From Vescimonas coprocola (lineage in GTDB: Bacteria > Bacillota > Clostridia > Oscillospirales > Oscillospiraceae), in NCBI RefSeq assembly GCF_018408575.1, contig NZ_AP023418.1:2074415-2138414 (forward strand): a stretch of 64,000 nt of DNA. Direction: 5' to 3'. This document shows, in pieces, positions 3,448-59,102 of this stretch. The notes below the pieces were generated by a model. The model saw only the letters and a list, made by a program, of their open reading frames with translations, was not told where the DNA came from and did no database searches. Both the position numbers and the translations under genes were made by a program. How positions within the stretch are numbered: the stretch's first letter is position 1; each line of letters opens with the position of its first letter.

Positions 3448-5539
3448 ACTGATTATTGCGGAAAAACCGAGTGTGGCAAAATCTATCGCATCGGCCCTGG
3501 GTGCTTCATCCAGGGCCGATGGCTTTTATGAGGGCAACGGCCTTCTCGTATCCTGGTGTGTGGGGCACTTGGTATCCCCGATGGATGCGGGCGGCTATGA
3601 CGAACGTTTCAAGAAATGGCGCTATGATGATCTTCCCATTCTGCCGGAGTCGTTCCGCTATGTGCTGGCACCGGGCAAGGAGGATGCTTTTGAAAATCTC
3701 CGTGCCCTGATGGACCGCCCCGATGTGGATACCATCGTCAATGCCTGTGATGCCGGGCGTGAAGGGGAACTGATCTTCCGTCTGGTGTATCAAATGGCGG
3801 ATTGCCACAAACCGATCCTTCGCCTTTGGATTTCCTCGATGGAGGACAGCGCCATTCGGGAGGGATTTTCTGATCTGCGCCCCGGCGCCGATTATGAAGC
3901 CCTGTATCAATCTGCCCTCTGCCGCCAGAAAGCGGATTGGCTGGTGGGAATCAACGCCACGCGCCTTTTCTCCGTTCTCTATCACCGTACCCTGAATGTG
4001 GGCCGTGTTCAGACCCCCACACTGGCAATGCTGGCGGAGCGTGACGCGAAGATCACGCTGTTCCACAAGGAAAAATATCATCTGCTGCGCCTGATGCTGG
4101 ACGGAGCCGAGGCAGTGTCGGAGAAATTCACCGATCCGGCGGAGGCGGAACAGGCAGCGGCTATGTGCAAGGGTGTGACCGTCACCTGTACTTCCGTCAC
4201 GAAGGAGCAGAAAAAGGAGCAGCCGCCGAAGCTCTATGATCTTACCACCTTGCAGCGTGAAGCAAACCGCCTGTTCGGATACACGGCGAAGCAGACCCTT
4301 GACTACGCCCAGAGCCTCTACGAAAAGAAGCTGCTGACCTATCCCCGCACGGACAGCCGGTATCTGACCTCCGACATGGCGGAAACAGCCTCCTGTGTGA
4401 TCCACCTGGCGGCGAAGCTGCCGCCCTTTGATGGCTGCTCCAACTTCTTCCCGCTGGTGGAGGCCATGATTTCCGACAAGGACGTATCCGACCATCACGC
4501 CATTATTCCCACGATGGAGATTGAAAAAGCGGATATCAAGGCTCTGCCCCTGGGCGAGCGCAATTTGTTCCTGCTGGTCTGCTGCAAGCTGCTGTGTGCG
4601 TCGGCGGAGCCGTATATGTATGAGGCGGTCACGGCAACTTTCAACTGCTGCGGCCATTCCTTCACCGCAAAGGGCAAGCGCGTCCTTGCCGAAGGCTGGC
4701 GGGAGATCGACCGCATTTTCCGTGTCTTTCTGAAAGAAAAGCCTGCGGATGGGGACGGCGATACGCTCCCAGACTTCACCGAAGGGCAGATTTTTGATGG
4801 TGCGGAGGTTGCTGTTACCGAGCATTTCACCCAGCCGCCGAAGCCCTACACCGAAGATACCCTCCTGTCCGCTATGGAGAACGCAGGAAAGGATGATATC
4901 CCCGATGAGGCGGAGCGAAAAGGTCTTGGCACGCCTGCGACCAGGGCGGCTATCATCGAAAAGCTGGTGGCAGCCGGATTTGTGGAGCGCAAGGGCAAGA
5001 GCCTGATCCCCACGAAAGCAGGTATCAACCTTGTTACGGTCCTGCCGGAGCCGCTGACCTCTCCCATGCTGACAGCGGAATGGGAACAGAAATTGACGGA
5101 GATCGCAAAGGGCGGCGCTGACCCGGATACCTTCATGGACGGTATCCGCACGATGGTCCAGGAGATCGTGTCCACCTATTCCTGCATTTCCGAGGATGGC
5201 AAAAAGCTGTTTGTCCCGGAGAAGGAAGTGATCGGTACCTGCCCCCGCTGCGGTCAGCCGGTCTATGAGGGCAAGAAGAACTTTGCGTGTTCGGATCGGT
5301 CCTGCGGTTTCGTCCTCTGGAAAAATGATCGCTTCTGGACGAGCCGCAAGAAGGAGCTGACAAAGAAAATGGCAGCGGACCTTCTGAAAAAGGGACGTAC
5401 CAATGTCAAGGGAATGTGGTCTGAAAAGAAACAGACCACTTATGACGCTGCGGTGATCCTGAACGACACGGGCGGCAAGTACATCAATTTCAAGCTGGAA
5501 TTTCCAAAAAGAAAGGTTGGTGCTGATGGCAGAAAATAA
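3440..5539 (+). CDS. topB: DNA topoisomerase III (type IA) of the ICE
   Basis: This 699-residue type IA topoisomerase would resolve or decatenate element DNA during transfer or rolling-circle replication. The Toprim domain is at the N-terminus ([13 protein letters not shown]; acidic [12 protein letters not shown] at about residue 100). The catalytic tyrosine is Y301 in [15 protein letters not shown]-terminal zinc ribbon (CPRCGQP then CSDRSCGF) follows, with a short TopB tail. Length is normal for TopB and no key residue is missing. It is a standard member of Tn1549/CTn elements, translationally coupled to the DUF4366 gene. A host topB, if present, is elsewhere. Confidence 0.95.
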
Positions 5540-21057: not shown

Positions 21058-21470
21058 TCCAGGACCGGGCGCTGCGTGTTCCCCTTTCCACGCGGCGTCC
21101 CGTTATAGCTCCTTGACAAAGAAAGCCCGTTGGGAGGCCAACGCCGCAGTATAAGGCAAACGGATACATTCCTGTTTGTGCCGAGCCATACGGCCGGTGC
21201 GCCATGACCTCGTTTCAAGTCCGCAGGACGGGACCACTGTAACGGGCGAGCGAACAACGCCAGACCGCAAAGCAAGCGTGGCAGCTTGTGGGCGATGACA
21301 CACGGGCAGGGTTAAAGATACTCGCGCATTGAACGCCCACAAAGCATTGTGCGCCGCACCCATCAGCATGGGCCGGGGTGAAACTCCCGTGGAGCTGTGC
21401 CAACAGCCGTCCGTAAGCCTACTTTTCTTTTTTGAAAGTTTATGGATAGATCGTAAACTTTTCAATTAGC
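21058..21470 (+). ncRNA. Candidate structured RNA between the HTH and excisionase genes
   Basis: No gene fits here, yet the stretch is GC-rich and dense in short perfect hairpins: CGTTGG/CCAACG, GGCAAAC/GTTTGTGCC, GTCC/GGAC, CAAGC/GCTTG, CACAA/TTGTG, CGGGG/CTCCCG with a GTGAAA loop. Near 21432-21461 a longer pair (AAAGTTTA with TAAACTTT) follows a T-rich tract. Such density suggests a structured leader or RNA. It lies in front of xis-int and could regulate excision. No known class is recognised. Confidence 0.45.
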
Positions 21471-33238: not shown

Positions 33239-33729
33239 GGCGCATCCCTCCCTGTTTTGGCGGACTGCGCTGTTCCGCCATTTTGAATTACATTATTATA
33301 GCATAGTTTTTCCTCTGCTACAACGTCTTTCTTATCGGTTTGAAAAAGTCTTTTCCGGGGTACTTTTTCGGCGGAGGGATCGGAGAAATGCGGGTTTTGC
33401 GAGGGGCGGCGAAAAAAGGGGGAAAGAAAGGCTGTACAAATGCGGAGAAATATGATATACTTTGTGTAAATCGTTGAAAAGCGATGGCCTTTTTTGTATT
33501 TTTTGCGGAGGCGGCGGGCCTTCGTGATCAAATAAACGAGGGGATTCCCCTCACCACTTTTGCACAGGACAGTCGGGCGGGCCGCCGGACTTCTCCGGCG
33601 ATACAGCGCCGCAGAGAAACGTCGGGAGCCGCCTCTATTTTGCCGTGTCCGTTTGCGGAGCAGCTGCGTCCGCCGACGGGCAGTCTGTCTGTGCGCTACT
33701 TATCTTGTAAAGGAGAATATTCAACACAT
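33239..33729. other. Divergent gdpP/rnj regulatory region with long rnj leader
   Basis: The rnj promoter lies at 33433-33461, leaving about 260 bases of untranslated leader. The frame of rnj stays open upstream to 33484, but codon content there is not protein-like and the ribosome site AAAGGAG is at 33709-33715. GC-rich inverted segments in 33570-33700 may form structure. Confidence 0.5.
33433..33461 (+). promoter_or_regulatory. Promoter of rnj
   Basis: TGTACA (33433-33438), 17-base spacer, TATACT (33456-33461) with an extended -10 TG at 33453-33454. Confidence 0.6.
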
Positions 33730-35388
33730 ATGGCAGAAAAATTGAAGATCATTCCTCTGGGCGGTCTCAACGAGATCGGCAAGAACATGACCGCCTATGA
33801 GTACGGCGGGGAGATCATTGTGGTGGACTGCGGCATGGCATTCCCCGGCGATGATATGTACGGCATCGACTGCGTCATCCCCGACGTCACCTATCTCATC
33901 AAGAACAGATCCCGGCTGCGGGGCCTGTTCATCACCCATGGCCATGAGGACCATATCGGGGCCATCCCCTACGTCCTCAAGCAGGTAAATATGCCCATCT
34001 ACTGCACCCGCTTTACCGCCGGACTCATCAAGCTGAAGCTGCAGGAGCACCGGCTGCTGGACAGCACCAAGCTGGTGACGGTGGAGGCCGGGCAGACGGT
34101 GAAGGCGGGGAAGTTTCAGGTGGAATTCATCCATGTGAACCACTCCATTGCCGACTCCGTGGCCTTCGCCATCCACACCCGCATGGGCGTGGTGGTCCAC
34201 ACCGGCGACTTCAAGATCGACTCCACCCCCATTGACGGGGAGGTCATCGATCTGGCCCGGTTCGGGGCTCTGGGCAAGGAGGGGGTGCTGGCGCTGCTGG
34301 CGGACTCCACCAACGTGGAGCGCCCCGGCTACACCATGAGCGAGCGGATGGTGGGCAAGACCTTCCAGCGGCAGTTCACCGGCTGCAAGCAGCGCATCAT
34401 CGTTACCACCTTCGCCAGCAACGTCCACCGCATCCAGCAGATCATTGACGCTGCCGCCGCCTGCGGGCGGAAGGTGGCCGTTACCGGCCGCAGCATGGAG
34501 AACATCATGAAGGTCTCCACGGAGCTGGGGTATATGAAGATCCCCAAGGGGGTGCTGATGGACATCAACCGCATCAAGGGCCTGCCGCCCCAGCAGCAGG
34601 TCATCATCACCACCGGCTCCCAGGGCGAGGAGATGAGCGCCCTGTACCGGATGGCGTTTTCCACCCACAAGCAGATCGACATCGGGCCGCAGGACAAGGT
34701 CATTATCTCCGCCTCCGCCATCCCCGGCAACGAGGTAACGGTGGGCCGGGTCATCAATGAGCTGTTCCGCAAGGGCGCCGACGTGGTGTACGACAAGGCG
34801 GATATGCTGCACGTGTCGGGCCACGCCTGTCAGGAGGAGCTGAAGATCATCCACGCTTTGACCAAGCCCAAGTTCTTCATTCCCCTGCATGGTGAGCAGC
34901 GGATGCTGCAGATCCACAAGCGGGTGGCGGAAGCCATGGGCATGGACCCCCGGAACATCTGCGTGGCCGAAAACGGCTCCGTCATCGAGCTGACCACCAA
35001 GCACATGAAGTGCGAGGCCTCCGTACCCGCCGGGGAGGTCTTTGTGGACGGCTCCGGCGTGGGTGAAGTGGGTGCTGTGGTACTCAATGACCGGAAGCTG
35101 CTGGCCGAGGACGGCATGGTGGTGGTGGTACTGAGTATGTCCTCCCACGACCACCGGCTGCTGTGTGAGCCGGAGATCGTCACCCGCGGCTTCGTGTATG
35201 TGAAGGAATCCGAGGAGCTTTTGCAGGAGCTGCGGGAGCTGGCCATGTCCACAGTGGACGGAATGGCCGCCCGGCGGCGCAAGGACGACAACGAGGTGTG
35301 CCGTGCCGTGCGCTCGGCGGTGAGCAGCTACCTCTATAAGCACACCAAGCGCAGCCCCATGATCATCCCCATGGTCACAAAGCTGTAA
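33730..35388 (+). CDS. rnj: Ribonuclease J
   Basis: A 552-residue metallo-beta-lactamase/beta-CASP RNase with 5'-3' exonuclease and endonuclease activity in mRNA decay and rRNA maturation. The zinc motif THGHEDHIGAIPY is at about 69-81; the beta-CASP region and C-terminal dimer domain follow (SGHACQEELKIIHALTKPKF; AVRSAVSSYLYKHTKRSP). ATG 33730 is chosen for the conserved start MAEKLKIIPLGGLNEIGKNM and the ribosome site 14-20 bases upstream. Length is normal. Confidence 0.95.
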   Translation: MAEKLKIIPLGGLNEIGKNMTAYEYGGEIIVVDCGMAFPGDDMYGIDCVIPDVTYLIKNRSRLRGLFITHGHEDHIGAIPYVLKQVNMPIYCTRFTAGLIKLKLQEHRLLDSTKLVTVEAGQTVKAGKFQVEFIHVNHSIADSVAFAIHTRMGVVVHTGDFKIDSTPIDGEVIDLARFGALGKEGVLALLADSTNVERPGYTMSERMVGKTFQRQFTGCKQRIIVTTFASNVHRIQQIIDAAAACGRKVAVTGRSMENIMKVSTELGYMKIPKGVLMDINRIKGLPPQQQVIITTGSQGEEMSALYRMAFSTHKQIDIGPQDKVIISASAIPGNEVTVGRVINELFRKGADVVYDKADMLHVSGHACQEELKIIHALTKPKFFIPLHGEQRMLQIHKRVAEAMGMDPRNICVAENGSVIELTTKHMKCEASVPAGEVFVDGSGVGEVGAVVLNDRKLLAEDGMVVVVLSMSSHDHRLLCEPEIVTRGFVYVKESEELLQELRELAMSTVDGMAARRRKDDNEVCRAVRSAVSSYLYKHTKRSPMIIPMVTKL

Positions 35389-36735: not shown

Positions 36736-38565
36736 TTACTGCACCTTGGTGCCGTCGATGGTGACGGTGAGGTGAGCGGCGTCCATGCTGTTCTTGTTGG
36801 CCCACAGGGTGGAGCCCGTATTCTTGCCGGCTGCGAAGCCGTTGACCGTGGCGTTGTTGACGGTCAGGGTGTAGGTGGCATTGTAGTCGTTGCCCACCTC
36901 GATGGCAGCCTTACCGGCAGCGCCGCTCTTGCGGTCGTTGAAGGTGCAGTTGTTCACCACCAGATCGGTGGGCTTCTCGGCGGTGGCCTGACCGTAGAGG
37001 AGGATGGCCTTGCCGTTGGTGTTGAAAGTGCAGCCCTCGAAGGTCACGTCCGTGCCGCCCCAGGTCCAGATGGAGTACTGGTTGGCCATCGTGTTATCGA
37101 AGGTGCAGTTGATGAAGGTGGCCTTGCCGTACAGAGTCAGCTTGCCCTTGATGGTGCAGTTGCGATAGACCAGCTCGTCGCAGACGATGCCGTCGAAGCT
37201 GCCCTCACCGGCCTGAACGGTCACATTCTCAAAGGTGAAGGTGGAGCCGCGCTGATAGTTCAGCTGACCGCCCTCGGCACCGGTGGCATTCGTGATGACG
37301 TCCACGGTCTGAGTGCCGTCACCCACGAAGGTGATGTTGCGGGCCTTGGCACCCTCGTTGGCGATGCCGTTGTCCAGCGTCAGGGTCTGGTCGGCGGGCA
37401 TGACGACCGTGATGTCCTTGTTTGTAGAATCGGTGATGGCGTTGTTCAGGTCTTCCTGCGTGCCGGGGATCACGCCGGTACCCTTGACCACGGTGTACCA
37501 GGTGTCATCGCCGTGCTTCTCGGAGACCACGGAATAGCCGTCAGCTACGAAGCTGCCGCCCAGATTGTCGTCACCCTTGGAGGGATCGTAGTTCACAAAG
37601 GTGCCGCCCTTGACGGTGATGGTGCCGGGGTTGTTGTTCTTCTGGTTCAGCACATAGTAGAAGCCGCTCCAGTTGTAGTTGGTATAGAAGAAGCCGCCCT
37701 CGATGACGATGTTGCCGCCGTTGCTCTCCACGACGGAGTTGCCCTCGCCGTTGGCATCGCTGCCCACGGTGAAGGTGCCGCCCTGAATGGTCACGGTGGC
37801 ACCGTTCATGGCATAGACGCAGATGTTATTGCCGCCATTGCCGCCGTCATAATAGCCGCCGGTGATGGTGACACTGGTGTCCTGCCCGCTGGCCTTTACG
37901 GCGATGTCATTGGGGTTCAGAGCCACGACACCGTTGCTGAGGGTGTGGGTACCTTCGGTGAATTCCTGCGTACCCTTATAGGCAGCGTTCTTGTCATACT
38001 GGTTGTTGAAGCTGTCGCTCTCCACGGTGTCCTGCGTGGCGTAGACGGTGATGGAAATGCCGCTGATGGTCAGATCCATGTAATCGTTGCCGGCAGACTC
38101 CTTCATGTGGCCCTTGATGGTGAACTCGTTGCTCTCACCGGCCTTCAGGTGCTGTTCGGCACCCATCGCCACATCCCCGATGGTCCACTCGATAGCCTCG
38201 TTCAGCTTGGCATCCCCCTTGATGCCGGTGATCTTGATCATGTACTTCAGAGCCAGATTGCCGTTGTTGACGACACGCAGCTCCGGCAGGGTATAGGTGC
38301 AGCCCGGCTCCCACAGGATGGCTTCGCCCTTGGCATCAGCAGCCTTGACGAAGTCCAGCGTCTTGCCCTCGGCGGAGACCCAGTTGCCGCTGGCATCCTT
38401 CATCTCCAGAGCAACATCCAGTTTGCCGGCCTGGATCTTGTTGACGCCGGTGGATGCGGTGTCGGTGAACCATGCGAAGGTAGCGCCTACCAGCATAGCC
38501 AGGCACAGGACCATGGCCATAACGCTGCCCAGCAAGGCCCGTTTGGTACTCTTGCGGTTTGTCAT
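36736..38565 (-). CDS. SipW-type (CalY/TasA-like) surface protein with beta-helix repeats, copy 1
   Basis: A 609-residue secreted protein. The N-terminus has the SipW-dependent signal form (LLGSVMAMVLCLAMLVGATF then AWFTDTASTGVNKIQAG), and residues about 30-190 form the CalY/camelysin-like domain. From about 200 on, short turns rich in Gly, Asn and Thr recur (VTITGGYYDGGNGGNNICVY, ITVKGGTFVNYD, VTFEGCTFNTNG), as in right-handed beta-helix proteins. It probably forms part of the cell surface or matrix. Its promoter, leader and first 190 residues are nearly duplicated at 57.5-59.1 kb. No SipW peptidase is in the window. No cell wall anchor is seen. Confidence 0.82.
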   Translation of the reverse strand: MTNRKSTKRALLGSVMAMVLCLAMLVGATFAWFTDTASTGVNKIQAGKLDVALEMKDASGNWVSAEGKTLDFVKAADAKGEAILWEPGCTYTLPELRVVNNGNLALKYMIKITGIKGDAKLNEAIEWTIGDVAMGAEQHLKAGESNEFTIKGHMKESAGNDYMDLTISGISITVYATQDTVESDSFNNQYDKNAAYKGTQEFTEGTHTLSNGVVALNPNDIAVKASGQDTSVTITGGYYDGGNGGNNICVYAMNGATVTIQGGTFTVGSDANGEGNSVVESNGGNIVIEGGFFYTNYNWSGFYYVLNQKNNNPGTITVKGGTFVNYDPSKGDDNLGGSFVADGYSVVSEKHGDDTWYTVVKGTGVIPGTQEDLNNAITDSTNKDITVVMPADQTLTLDNGIANEGAKARNITFVGDGTQTVDVITNATGAEGGQLNYQRGSTFTFENVTVQAGEGSFDGIVCDELVYRNCTIKGKLTLYGKATFINCTFDNTMANQYSIWTWGGTDVTFEGCTFNTNGKAILLYGQATAEKPTDLVVNNCTFNDRKSGAAGKAAIEVGNDYNATYTLTVNNATVNGFAAGKNTGSTLWANKNSMDAAHLTVTIDGTKVQ

Positions 38566-38739
38566 AGTATCTTCCTCCTATTTTTTTGTGTGTGGGGCGA
38601 TGGGGCGCTGCAAGGAGAATGCGGACTCTCACGTCGGGGCTGCGCCCCTCCTCAGAATGGCAACCTCTTTGACCTCTCCTTATCGTTTCTAAGAAACGAT
38701 AAAAGCCCATGGGCTTTTCGCCGCACACTTGATAGTTGT
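38566..38739 (-). other. Conserved hairpin leader of SipW-type copy 1
   Basis: After the promoter the leader holds AAAAGCCCATGGGCTTTT (38701-38718), then TATCGTTTCT/AGAAACGATA (38681-38701) and GGGGC/GCCCC (38636-38648). The same hairpins recur before copy 2. An RNA-level control is plausible. Confidence 0.6.
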
Positions 38740-38768
38740 ATCATAGCACCATGATCGACAGAGTGCAA
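38740..38768 (-). promoter_or_regulatory. Promoter of SipW-type copy 1
   Basis: Leftward TTGCAC (38763-38768), 17-base spacer, TATGAT (38740-38745). The region around -10 is identical to copy 2. Confidence 0.75.
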
Positions 38769-57468: not shown

Positions 57469-58878
57469 TCAATCCTTGCTTACGACAACCATACCGTCTT
57501 TAAGCGTAGCTGTATAGCCTTCAGGACAATAATTCCGCATAAACTCCACTGTCTCATTCCCATAGCTACCGCCCATTACGACTGTACCCTGCGCATAATT
57601 CTGCACATAAAGGCTTCCCTGAGGGCCGGTAAATGTACCACCGTTGATCTCCATCTTTGCACCGCCGTTGGAAATGGCAACGTAATTGTCAGAAATGATT
57701 TTGCCGCCGTTAATCGTTGCAACACCGGTTGAGTCATTGGACAATCCCCAGAAACCGGTACAATGCAATGTGCCACCGTTCATTGTCAGAGTGCCACCAG
57801 CGCAGTTTTTAAAACCGTTTGGACCGGCCTCCATTTCGATGTTGTTGATCGTCATGGTAGCTTTTTGTTCGCCGGGATTTATATAATTCCAACCGTTGAC
57901 AATGGCAAATGATTGACCGTCTTCAGCAATCACTTTACCGCCGTTGAAGGTCATGGTACCAAAGTTTTCCACAGTGTGCCACTTGTTGTCCACCCCAGCC
58001 GCGCGGGTGAAGGTACCGCCGTCTATCACGCAAACAGCAGCGTTACGAAGCGCAGATGTATTGGCTTTTGACGCAACGATCTTTCCATTGCCACTGCTGT
58101 CCTTTATGCACAGCGTACCATGGTTCAAAATCGCATGGGAGTCGCCGCCGGTCAGCGTAAAACCATTAAGATCCAGCGTGACATCTTTACCCTGGGGAAC
58201 CGTAAGACTTCCGGCAATATTGCCTTCCAGCTTCGCAGACACAGGTTCAGTGGCGTTATTAATCAGCTCCTGGAGAGTATCCATGGCAACAATCGGATAC
58301 TCCGCATCCTCATCGTAGGTGTTGCCGAAGCTGTCGTTCTCCACGGTGTCCTGCGTAGCCGCAACGGTGATGGCGATGCCGTCGATGGACTCGTTCATGT
58401 ACTCGTTGCCGGCAGACTCCTTCATGTGGCCCTTGATGGTGAACTCGTTGCTCTCACCGGCCTTCAGGTGCTGTTCGGCACCCATCGCCACATCCCCGAT
58501 GGTCCACTCGATGGCCTCGTTCAGCTTGGCGCTGCCGTTGATGCCGGTGATGGTCACCTTGTACTTCAGGGCCAGATTGCCGTTGTTGATGACACGCAGC
58601 TCCGGCAGGGTATAGGTGCAGCCCGGCTCCCACAGAACCTGCTCGCCCGCAGCGGCCTTGACGAAGTCCAGCGTTTTGCCCTCAGCGGGAACCCACTGGC
58701 CAGCGGCATCCTTCATTTCCAGCGCCACTTTCAGATTACCGGCTTGGATCTTGTTGACACCGGTGGATGCGGTGTCGGTGAACCATGCAAAGGTAGCGCC
58801 TATCAGCATGGCCAGGCACAGAACCATGGCCATGACGCTGCCCAGCAAGGCCCGTTTGGTACTCTTGCGGTTTGTCAT
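57469..58878 (-). CDS. SipW-type surface protein with beta-helix repeats, copy 2
   Basis: A 469-residue paralogue of the protein at 36.7-38.6 kb. The signal (LLGSVMAMVLCLAMLIGATF, AWFTDTASTGVNKIQAG) and about 190 N-terminal residues are nearly identical to copy 1; the rest is different, though also of short beta-helix turns (TMTFNGGKVIAEDG, LTMNGGTLHCTGFWG, KMEINGGTFTGPQG). From about 58300 to the gene end the DNA is clearly more AT-rich than the N-terminal part and the neighbours, as if a new C-terminus had been joined. It ends with a short KDGMVVVSKD tail and no wall anchor. Confidence 0.82.
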   Translation of the reverse strand: MTNRKSTKRALLGSVMAMVLCLAMLIGATFAWFTDTASTGVNKIQAGNLKVALEMKDAAGQWVPAEGKTLDFVKAAAGEQVLWEPGCTYTLPELRVINNGNLALKYKVTITGINGSAKLNEAIEWTIGDVAMGAEQHLKAGESNEFTIKGHMKESAGNEYMNESIDGIAITVAATQDTVENDSFGNTYDEDAEYPIVAMDTLQELINNATEPVSAKLEGNIAGSLTVPQGKDVTLDLNGFTLTGGDSHAILNHGTLCIKDSSGNGKIVASKANTSALRNAAVCVIDGGTFTRAAGVDNKWHTVENFGTMTFNGGKVIAEDGQSFAIVNGWNYINPGEQKATMTINNIEMEAGPNGFKNCAGGTLTMNGGTLHCTGFWGLSNDSTGVATINGGKIISDNYVAISNGGAKMEINGGTFTGPQGSLYVQNYAQGTVVMGGSYGNETVEFMRNYCPEGYTATLKDGMVVVSKD

Positions 58879-59073
58879 AAGTATCTCCTCCTATTTTTTG
58901 CGTGTGGGGCTCTTGGCTGGCAGGCTTTTGTAGCGGGACGCCGCAAAAGGGATACGGATCCTCCTGTCGGGGCTGCGCCTCTCCTCAGGATGACACTCCC
59001 TTTGAACACCCCTTATCGTTTCTTAGAAACGATAAAAAGCCCACGGGCTTTTGGCCGCACGCTTGATAGTTGT
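58879..59073 (-). other. Conserved hairpin leader of SipW-type copy 2
   Basis: The leader repeats the hairpins of copy 1: AAAGCCCACGGGCTTTT (59036-59052) and TATCGTTTCT/AGAAACGATA (59014-59034). The part next to the gene is less similar. Confidence 0.6.
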
Positions 59074-59102
59074 ATCATAGCACCGTGCTTGACAGAATTC
59101 AA
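59074..59102 (-). promoter_or_regulatory. Promoter of SipW-type copy 2
   Basis: Leftward TTGAAT (59097-59102), 17-base spacer, TATGAT (59074-59079), in the same context as the copy 1 promoter. Confidence 0.75.

Follow-up and report, generated by a model that had tools for sequence, protein, structure and literature searches.

The window analyzed here, a 64,000-nucleotide (nt) stretch of the Vescimonas coprocola genome, contains two genes, A and B, that encode proteins with a SipW-type signal peptide, the same N-terminal base, and different C-terminal heads, each preceded by a promoter and a leader with two hairpins (Table 1). The open frames of both genes were confirmed.

Table 1. Features of genes A and B (positions are those of the window; H1 and H2, hairpins 1 and 2; RBS, ribosome-binding site)
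Feature	Position	Strand	Description
Gene A	36736..38565	-	609 aa; SipW signal, predicted TasA/AbpA-like base, two predicted beta-helix segments
Gene B	57469..58878	-	469 aa; signal and base as in A, other head
Promoter of A	38740..38768	-	TTGCAC, 17 nt, extended -10 TGCTATGAT
H1, leader of A	38701..38718	-	AAAAGCCCATGGGCTTTT
H2, leader of A	38681..38701	-	TATCGTTTCTTAGAAACGATA
RBS and start codon of A	38563..38580	-	TAGGAGGAAGATACTATG
SipW-type signal peptide of A	38473..38565	-	Codons 1-31; TIGR04088 above cutoff; putative cut before WFTD
Constant base of A	37993..38472	-	Predicted beta-sandwich and likely donor strand (residues ~32-45), from model and fold match
110-nt A/B-identical tract within base	38091..38200 (approximate)	-	Shuffle test
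Variable head of A	36739..37992	-	Residues 192-609
Promoter of B	59074..59102	-	17-nt spacer, extended -10
H1, leader of B	59035..59052	-	AAAAGCCCGTGGGCTTTT
H2, leader of B	59014..59034	-	TATCGTTTCTAAGAAACGATA
Variable head of B	57472..58311	-	Residues 190-469

The DNA of A and B aligns with 85% identity over 790 bp (E = 0), and the aligned block spans the promoter, the leader, and the N-terminal coding DNA. This similarity stops at the motif DSF(N/G)N.YD, at about residue 190, and the G+C content of gene B is 49% on the head side of the gene versus 59% on the cassette side. A first-pass annotation of this DNA had correctly described the 190 or so common N-terminal residues, the leader hairpins, and the promoter spacing of 17 nt. 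That annotation also held the remainder of the two proteins to be different, which is correct in that the heads cannot be aligned as orthologous domains, but both are repetitive and built of beta-strands, and weak similarity links some head modules of different family members.

The family is not confined to this pair. Nine copies of the cassette occur in the genome (2.56 Mb in two contigs): seven are intact, one at 260 kb is interrupted in frame by a TAG stop at codon 32, and the ninth, at 1553 kb, is a remnant that retains just the end of the base, followed immediately by the final residues of a head. In copy number, the genome thereby departs from the case of just two copies with stable C termini, which the first-pass annotation would have taken as a refutation. 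Copies are dispersed across the genome, save for one tandem pair at 1704-1706 kb. The neighbors of the remnant (locus L029, about 3900-4110) resemble conjugation genes, and the copy at 1998 kb has a tyrosine-recombinase-like gene (locus L024, genome positions 1999656-2001029) some 1 kb upstream. Close cassettes were present in four other genomes when 32 genomes of the genus were sampled, and a cassette match at 1e-12 was present in three others when 200 genomes of the family were sampled, both draws being samples rather than full sets; this genome is therefore unusually rich in cassettes, and their distribution is patchy. Relatives were recovered with a profile query, and a single-protein query against named genomes returned none. 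Of six genus genomes sampled, two lack the peptidase that flanks locus A, and the other four have it at only about 52% identity.

The signal peptides of A and B score 27.1 and 30.6 bits, respectively, against TIGR04088 (SipW-dependent-type signal; cutoff, 19). Both SipW-like peptidase genes in the genome exceed the TIGR02228 cutoff and fall below that of NF046067, the Bacillus SipW equivalog. The first-pass annotation had suggested looking for a SipW peptidase; a SipW-like one is present, together with an operon of substrates. This operon lies beside the 1704-1706 kb tandem copies and includes four further SipW substrates, subthreshold matches to TIGR04090 (BsaA type) among them, and a VWA-domain protein; ER-type motifs (SGSMEP and THR) are visible in its peptidase. 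The second peptidase gene is at 2449 kb.

In the predicted structure of the base (mean pLDDT, 73), a low-confidence segment (residues 32-45) separates the signal helix from a beta-sandwich. Foldseek matched it to an archaeal bundling pilin (7ueg; E = 2.4e-3, probability 1.00) and also to chaperone-usher/donor-strand pilin domains, with moderate TM scores of about 0.35-0.38. At the sequence level, no significant match to solved structures was found, TasA included, and a full-length match to the TasA/CalY family was not obtained, the match to PF12389 (camelysin/CalY) being barely above the gathering score and covering residues 8-54 only. TasA fibers assemble through an N-terminal donor strand that follows the signal (PMC9674648). 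In the base, a conserved WFTD stretch sits at the place of the TasA donor strand, and the low-confidence residues are those where a donor strand would stay unpaired in a monomer. The constant region of about 190 residues is thus predicted to hold a TasA/AbpA-like fiber-subunit domain besides the export signal, and, given N-terminal-strand assembly in TasA and the WFTD stretch in the same place, it is reasonable to suppose that the base works like TasA, with kinship suggested by the signal motif, the fold, and the context. The constant cassette had been proposed to serve export and control; this is borne out, but the predicted resemblance of the base to a TasA/AbpA-like fiber subunit would make it more than an export signal.

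Beyond the base, the C-terminal part of A consists of beta-strand repeats in the model, the prediction being good from residue ~370 onward, and its head gives weak matches to right-handed beta-helix enzymes; Pfam Beta_helix is matched by 7 of the 18 family members. Heads and bases have different histories of similarity. The A protein and a Merdimmobilis hominis protein (locus L105) are 32% identical in the base and 72% identical over 276 aa of the head (residues ~333-609), and the 701 kb copy and its counterpart at L120 are 63% identical in the head and 47% identical in a base that is only partly alignable. Conversely, the base of B is 65% identical to that of L053 with no match between heads, and the head of B has no match at 1e-6 among the cassette loci compared. 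This decoupling of head and base identities across species is the best evidence that the heads are exchangeable modules, apparently passed between species independently of the bases, and, with the nine dispersed copies, it agrees with the earlier description of variable beta-helix proteins behind a constant cassette.

The 5' part of the gene is far more uniform. Pairwise DNA identity among copies is 89-97% in the first 150 nt and 38-86% in the rest, and the mean synonymous difference is 0.21 in the first 50 codons versus 0.51 and 0.58 further on. In addition, A and B share an identical 110-nt tract inside the base, and a run of this length was reached in 0 of 2,000 shuffles. The homogeneous first 150 nt and this tract fit a partial homogenization by recombination, with a possible contribution from constraint on the signal; the small synonymous difference of the signal region could alternatively be caused by constraint at the nucleotide level.

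In each of the eight full copies, the promoter combines a TTG-type -35 box and a -10 box at a spacing of exactly 17 nt. Two adjacent hairpins are present in seven of these leaders, always starting 21-22 nt after the -10 box, and the second hairpin lies 62-161 nt from the ATG across the copies that have hairpins. Because the offset is fixed from the -10 box and variable to the ATG, the hairpins are anchored to the start of the transcript and not to the ribosome site. The copy at 701 kb, which shares an identical promoter with the copy at 2378 kb, has lost the hairpin block. The H2 pattern, ATCGTTTC N3-4 GARACGAT, has seven sites in the genome, each upstream of a cassette, and the reversed control pattern has no match in the same 2.56 Mb, indicating that H2 did not arise by chance. 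Within this genome, the hairpin pair was found only at the cassette, and a mobile-element origin of the leader is not supported on that ground. Several multicopy relatives likewise share a leader within the genome, and the leader sequence differs between genomes. No match to Rfam 15 above the gathering score was found at the leaders; elsewhere in the window, positions 21312-21392 match the pemK RNA (36.7 bits versus a gathering score of 34.8). The G+C-rich block containing GCGCAGCCCCGAC (38623-38660 and 58966-58978 in the window) is common to four leaders, those of A and B included, and is missing from the shorter ones.

Pairing is intact in all 105 cells formed by the 15 base pairs in seven leaders, and three pairs are doubly changed; none of 500 shuffles reached the observed number of paired cells, the number of doubly changed cells, or the covariation score, and shifting the hairpin partners by sliding destroyed the pairing. 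Three base pairs of hairpin 1 show compensatory changes among the seven copies, a pattern of variation suggestive of an RNA element linked to the mRNA 5' end, and the stem of H2 is kept while its loop differs in sequence and length (3 or 4 nt) among copies. In another species of the genus (genome G019, locus L065), a cassette gene is preceded by TCAGGGGGTACCCCCTGA and then CATGGTTTCTGTAGAAACCATG, 158 nt before the ATG. When compared by eye with the leaders of this genome, these stems differ in their letters with pairing intact, and the third pair of the H2 stem is G-C in place of C-G. E-values from the leader model are rough.

That the H2 stem is nearly invariant in this genome, and that all seven H2 sites lie just downstream of a promoter, would also be expected if the leader palindromes were DNA operators through which a dimeric regulator coregulates the family. 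We consider this unlikely, since changes in sequence that preserve pairing, both in hairpin 1 and in the two stems of G019, and loops of either 3 or 4 nt, which would shift the half-sites, favor an RNA element over a DNA operator. An attenuator function for hairpin 1 seems very improbable: a short U run follows this hairpin in four copies, A and B among them, but three copies that have kept the pairing carry GGUU or GUCU instead. A leader ORF starting in the hairpin 1 loop was also rejected, as it varies in frame and length from copy to copy and lacks an upstream ribosome site. A protein that, by eye, we take to be similar to RNase J is encoded in the window at 33484-35388. With this gene nearby, and with the precedent of Bacilli, in which structured 5' ends stabilize mRNA by blocking the 5' exonuclease RNase J (PMC3997798), the hairpin pair is most likely a stabilizer of the mRNA. 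In genus g89 (loci L138 and L139), an unrelated gene is directly preceded by a hairpin tandem of similar form, with stems that are changed but paired; this tandem apparently lies downstream of a sigma-factor-like gene. The hairpins might not be specific to SipW cassette proteins, and the design of the leader is possibly more general.

In relatives, the sequences upstream of SipW cassettes often contain runs of guanine. Within 622 kb consisting mostly of related cassette loci, 15 of the 18 G tracts of at least 8 nt have a SipW cassette no more than 700 bases downstream, a count in which a few are the same tract in overlapping loci. Some of these tracts occur in promoter spacers, and others occur in a short leader ORF that terminates at a different distance in each of the three frames; these leader ORFs are candidates for a translational phase switch. 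A scan of 394 genomes of the order for a pattern comprising a -35 box, poly-G, and a -10 box (total spacer, 15-23 nt) gave 36 matches, distributed over 17 genomes, and none for the reversed control. Judged from sequence, these promoters are arranged like slippage-controlled ones. The 36 matches mostly precede genes other than cassettes (L156-L185), many of them for secreted proteins; those at L104, L131, and L124 precede SipW cassette genes. Our literature search turned up no paper that deals with poly-G promoters of these bacteria. The leader ORFs at L056, L073, L081, L082, L093, L112, and L134 begin M(Q/K)xxQ..., 150-240 nt upstream of the cassette genes, and contain 8-11 consecutive G residues immediately ahead of their frame-dependent end; the length of the peptide differs by frame.

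Neither poly-G pattern has a match in the V. coprocola genome, and no hypermutable tract was found in the promoter, leader, or coding start of its cassette genes, so that switching is not supported here. The first-pass annotation had suggested antigenic or adhesive variation. Within a strain, such variation would use the copies as donors or switches, with one head expressed or replaced at a time. Nine copies with a common 5' block, possible silent donors in the nonsense copy and the remnant, recombination as evidenced by the tract identical in A and B, and the slippage tracts upstream of homologues in relatives would all suit this scheme. However, no single expression site with promoterless donors was found, the seven intact copies each having their own promoter; possible silent copies are few, the leaders lack both a poly-G promoter and a poly-G leader ORF, and the homogenized block is the constant part and not the head. 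We therefore regard within-strain antigenic or phase variation as quite improbable in V. coprocola, and the variation observed would instead reflect diversification over evolutionary time with the 5' part partly homogenized. Old duplications yielding an ordinary paralogous family, with purifying selection on signal and promoter and no exchange of heads, would account for the tandem copies beside the SipW operon, which resemble an ancestral cluster, but the closest relatives differ for heads and bases and the identical tract in A and B is long, which makes this reading improbable as well.

The explanation that we favor, and hold to be probable, is that A and B are two of nine dispersed SipW-processed fiber subunits that have exchangeable heads and a common promoter, hairpins, signal, and base. 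A SipW-like peptidase would cut before the conserved WFTD, and the WFTD stretch, as a donor strand, would slot into the next subunit. Different subunits could in this manner join common fibers or cell-surface assemblies that show different beta-helix heads, for which an adhesive role may be inferred, and the hairpins would shield the 5' end of the mRNA and thereby give high, common expression. The family may have grown by copying of the 5' cassette plus the base, with recombination between copies partly homogenizing it and new heads gained by recombination with other gut Clostridia.

SipW/TasA fibers are known mainly as biofilm scaffolds of Bacillus, and the only two papers found to contain the phrase "SipW-dependent-type signal peptide" do not, to judge by title and abstract, concern gut Clostridia. 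If the proposed explanation is true, commensal Clostridia would have a Gram-positive, sortase-free means of varying the display of surface fibers. The common hairpin leader would offer a direct handle on the control of the gene set, and the poly-G tracts of relatives make phase variation of fibers in gut anaerobes testable from existing long reads. A broader reading, which we offer only tentatively, is that SipW-processed fibers of gut Clostridia form a modular display in which a common polymerizing base and a genome-specific leader carry heads swapped between species, and in which, in several lineages, poly-G slippage in a promoter spacer or a three-frame leader peptide switches the leader to yield phase-variable, biofilm-type fibers.

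Several known systems share features with this family. Phase-variable contingency loci have poly-G promoters like those present in relatives of the gene family, but these are absent from the V. coprocola leaders. BsaA-type SipW-dependent biofilm matrix proteins (TIGR04090) have counterparts among the substrates in the SipW operon of this genome, whereas A and B themselves do not match, and the match to camelysin/CalY is limited to the N-terminal segment, the rest of that domain being uncovered. The archaeal bundling pilin AbpA has a similar predicted beta-sandwich, although it lacks a head domain and the TM score is only moderate. TasA differs in having no beta-helix head, whereas here nine dispersed copies have their own promoters and a common hairpin leader. 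Like TasA, however, these proteins combine a SipW-type signal that has an aromatic residue after the cut with an N-terminal strand and then a predicted beta-sandwich, are accompanied by a SipW-like peptidase gene in the genome, and, as judged here from genes and models, likely form a surface or matrix fiber.
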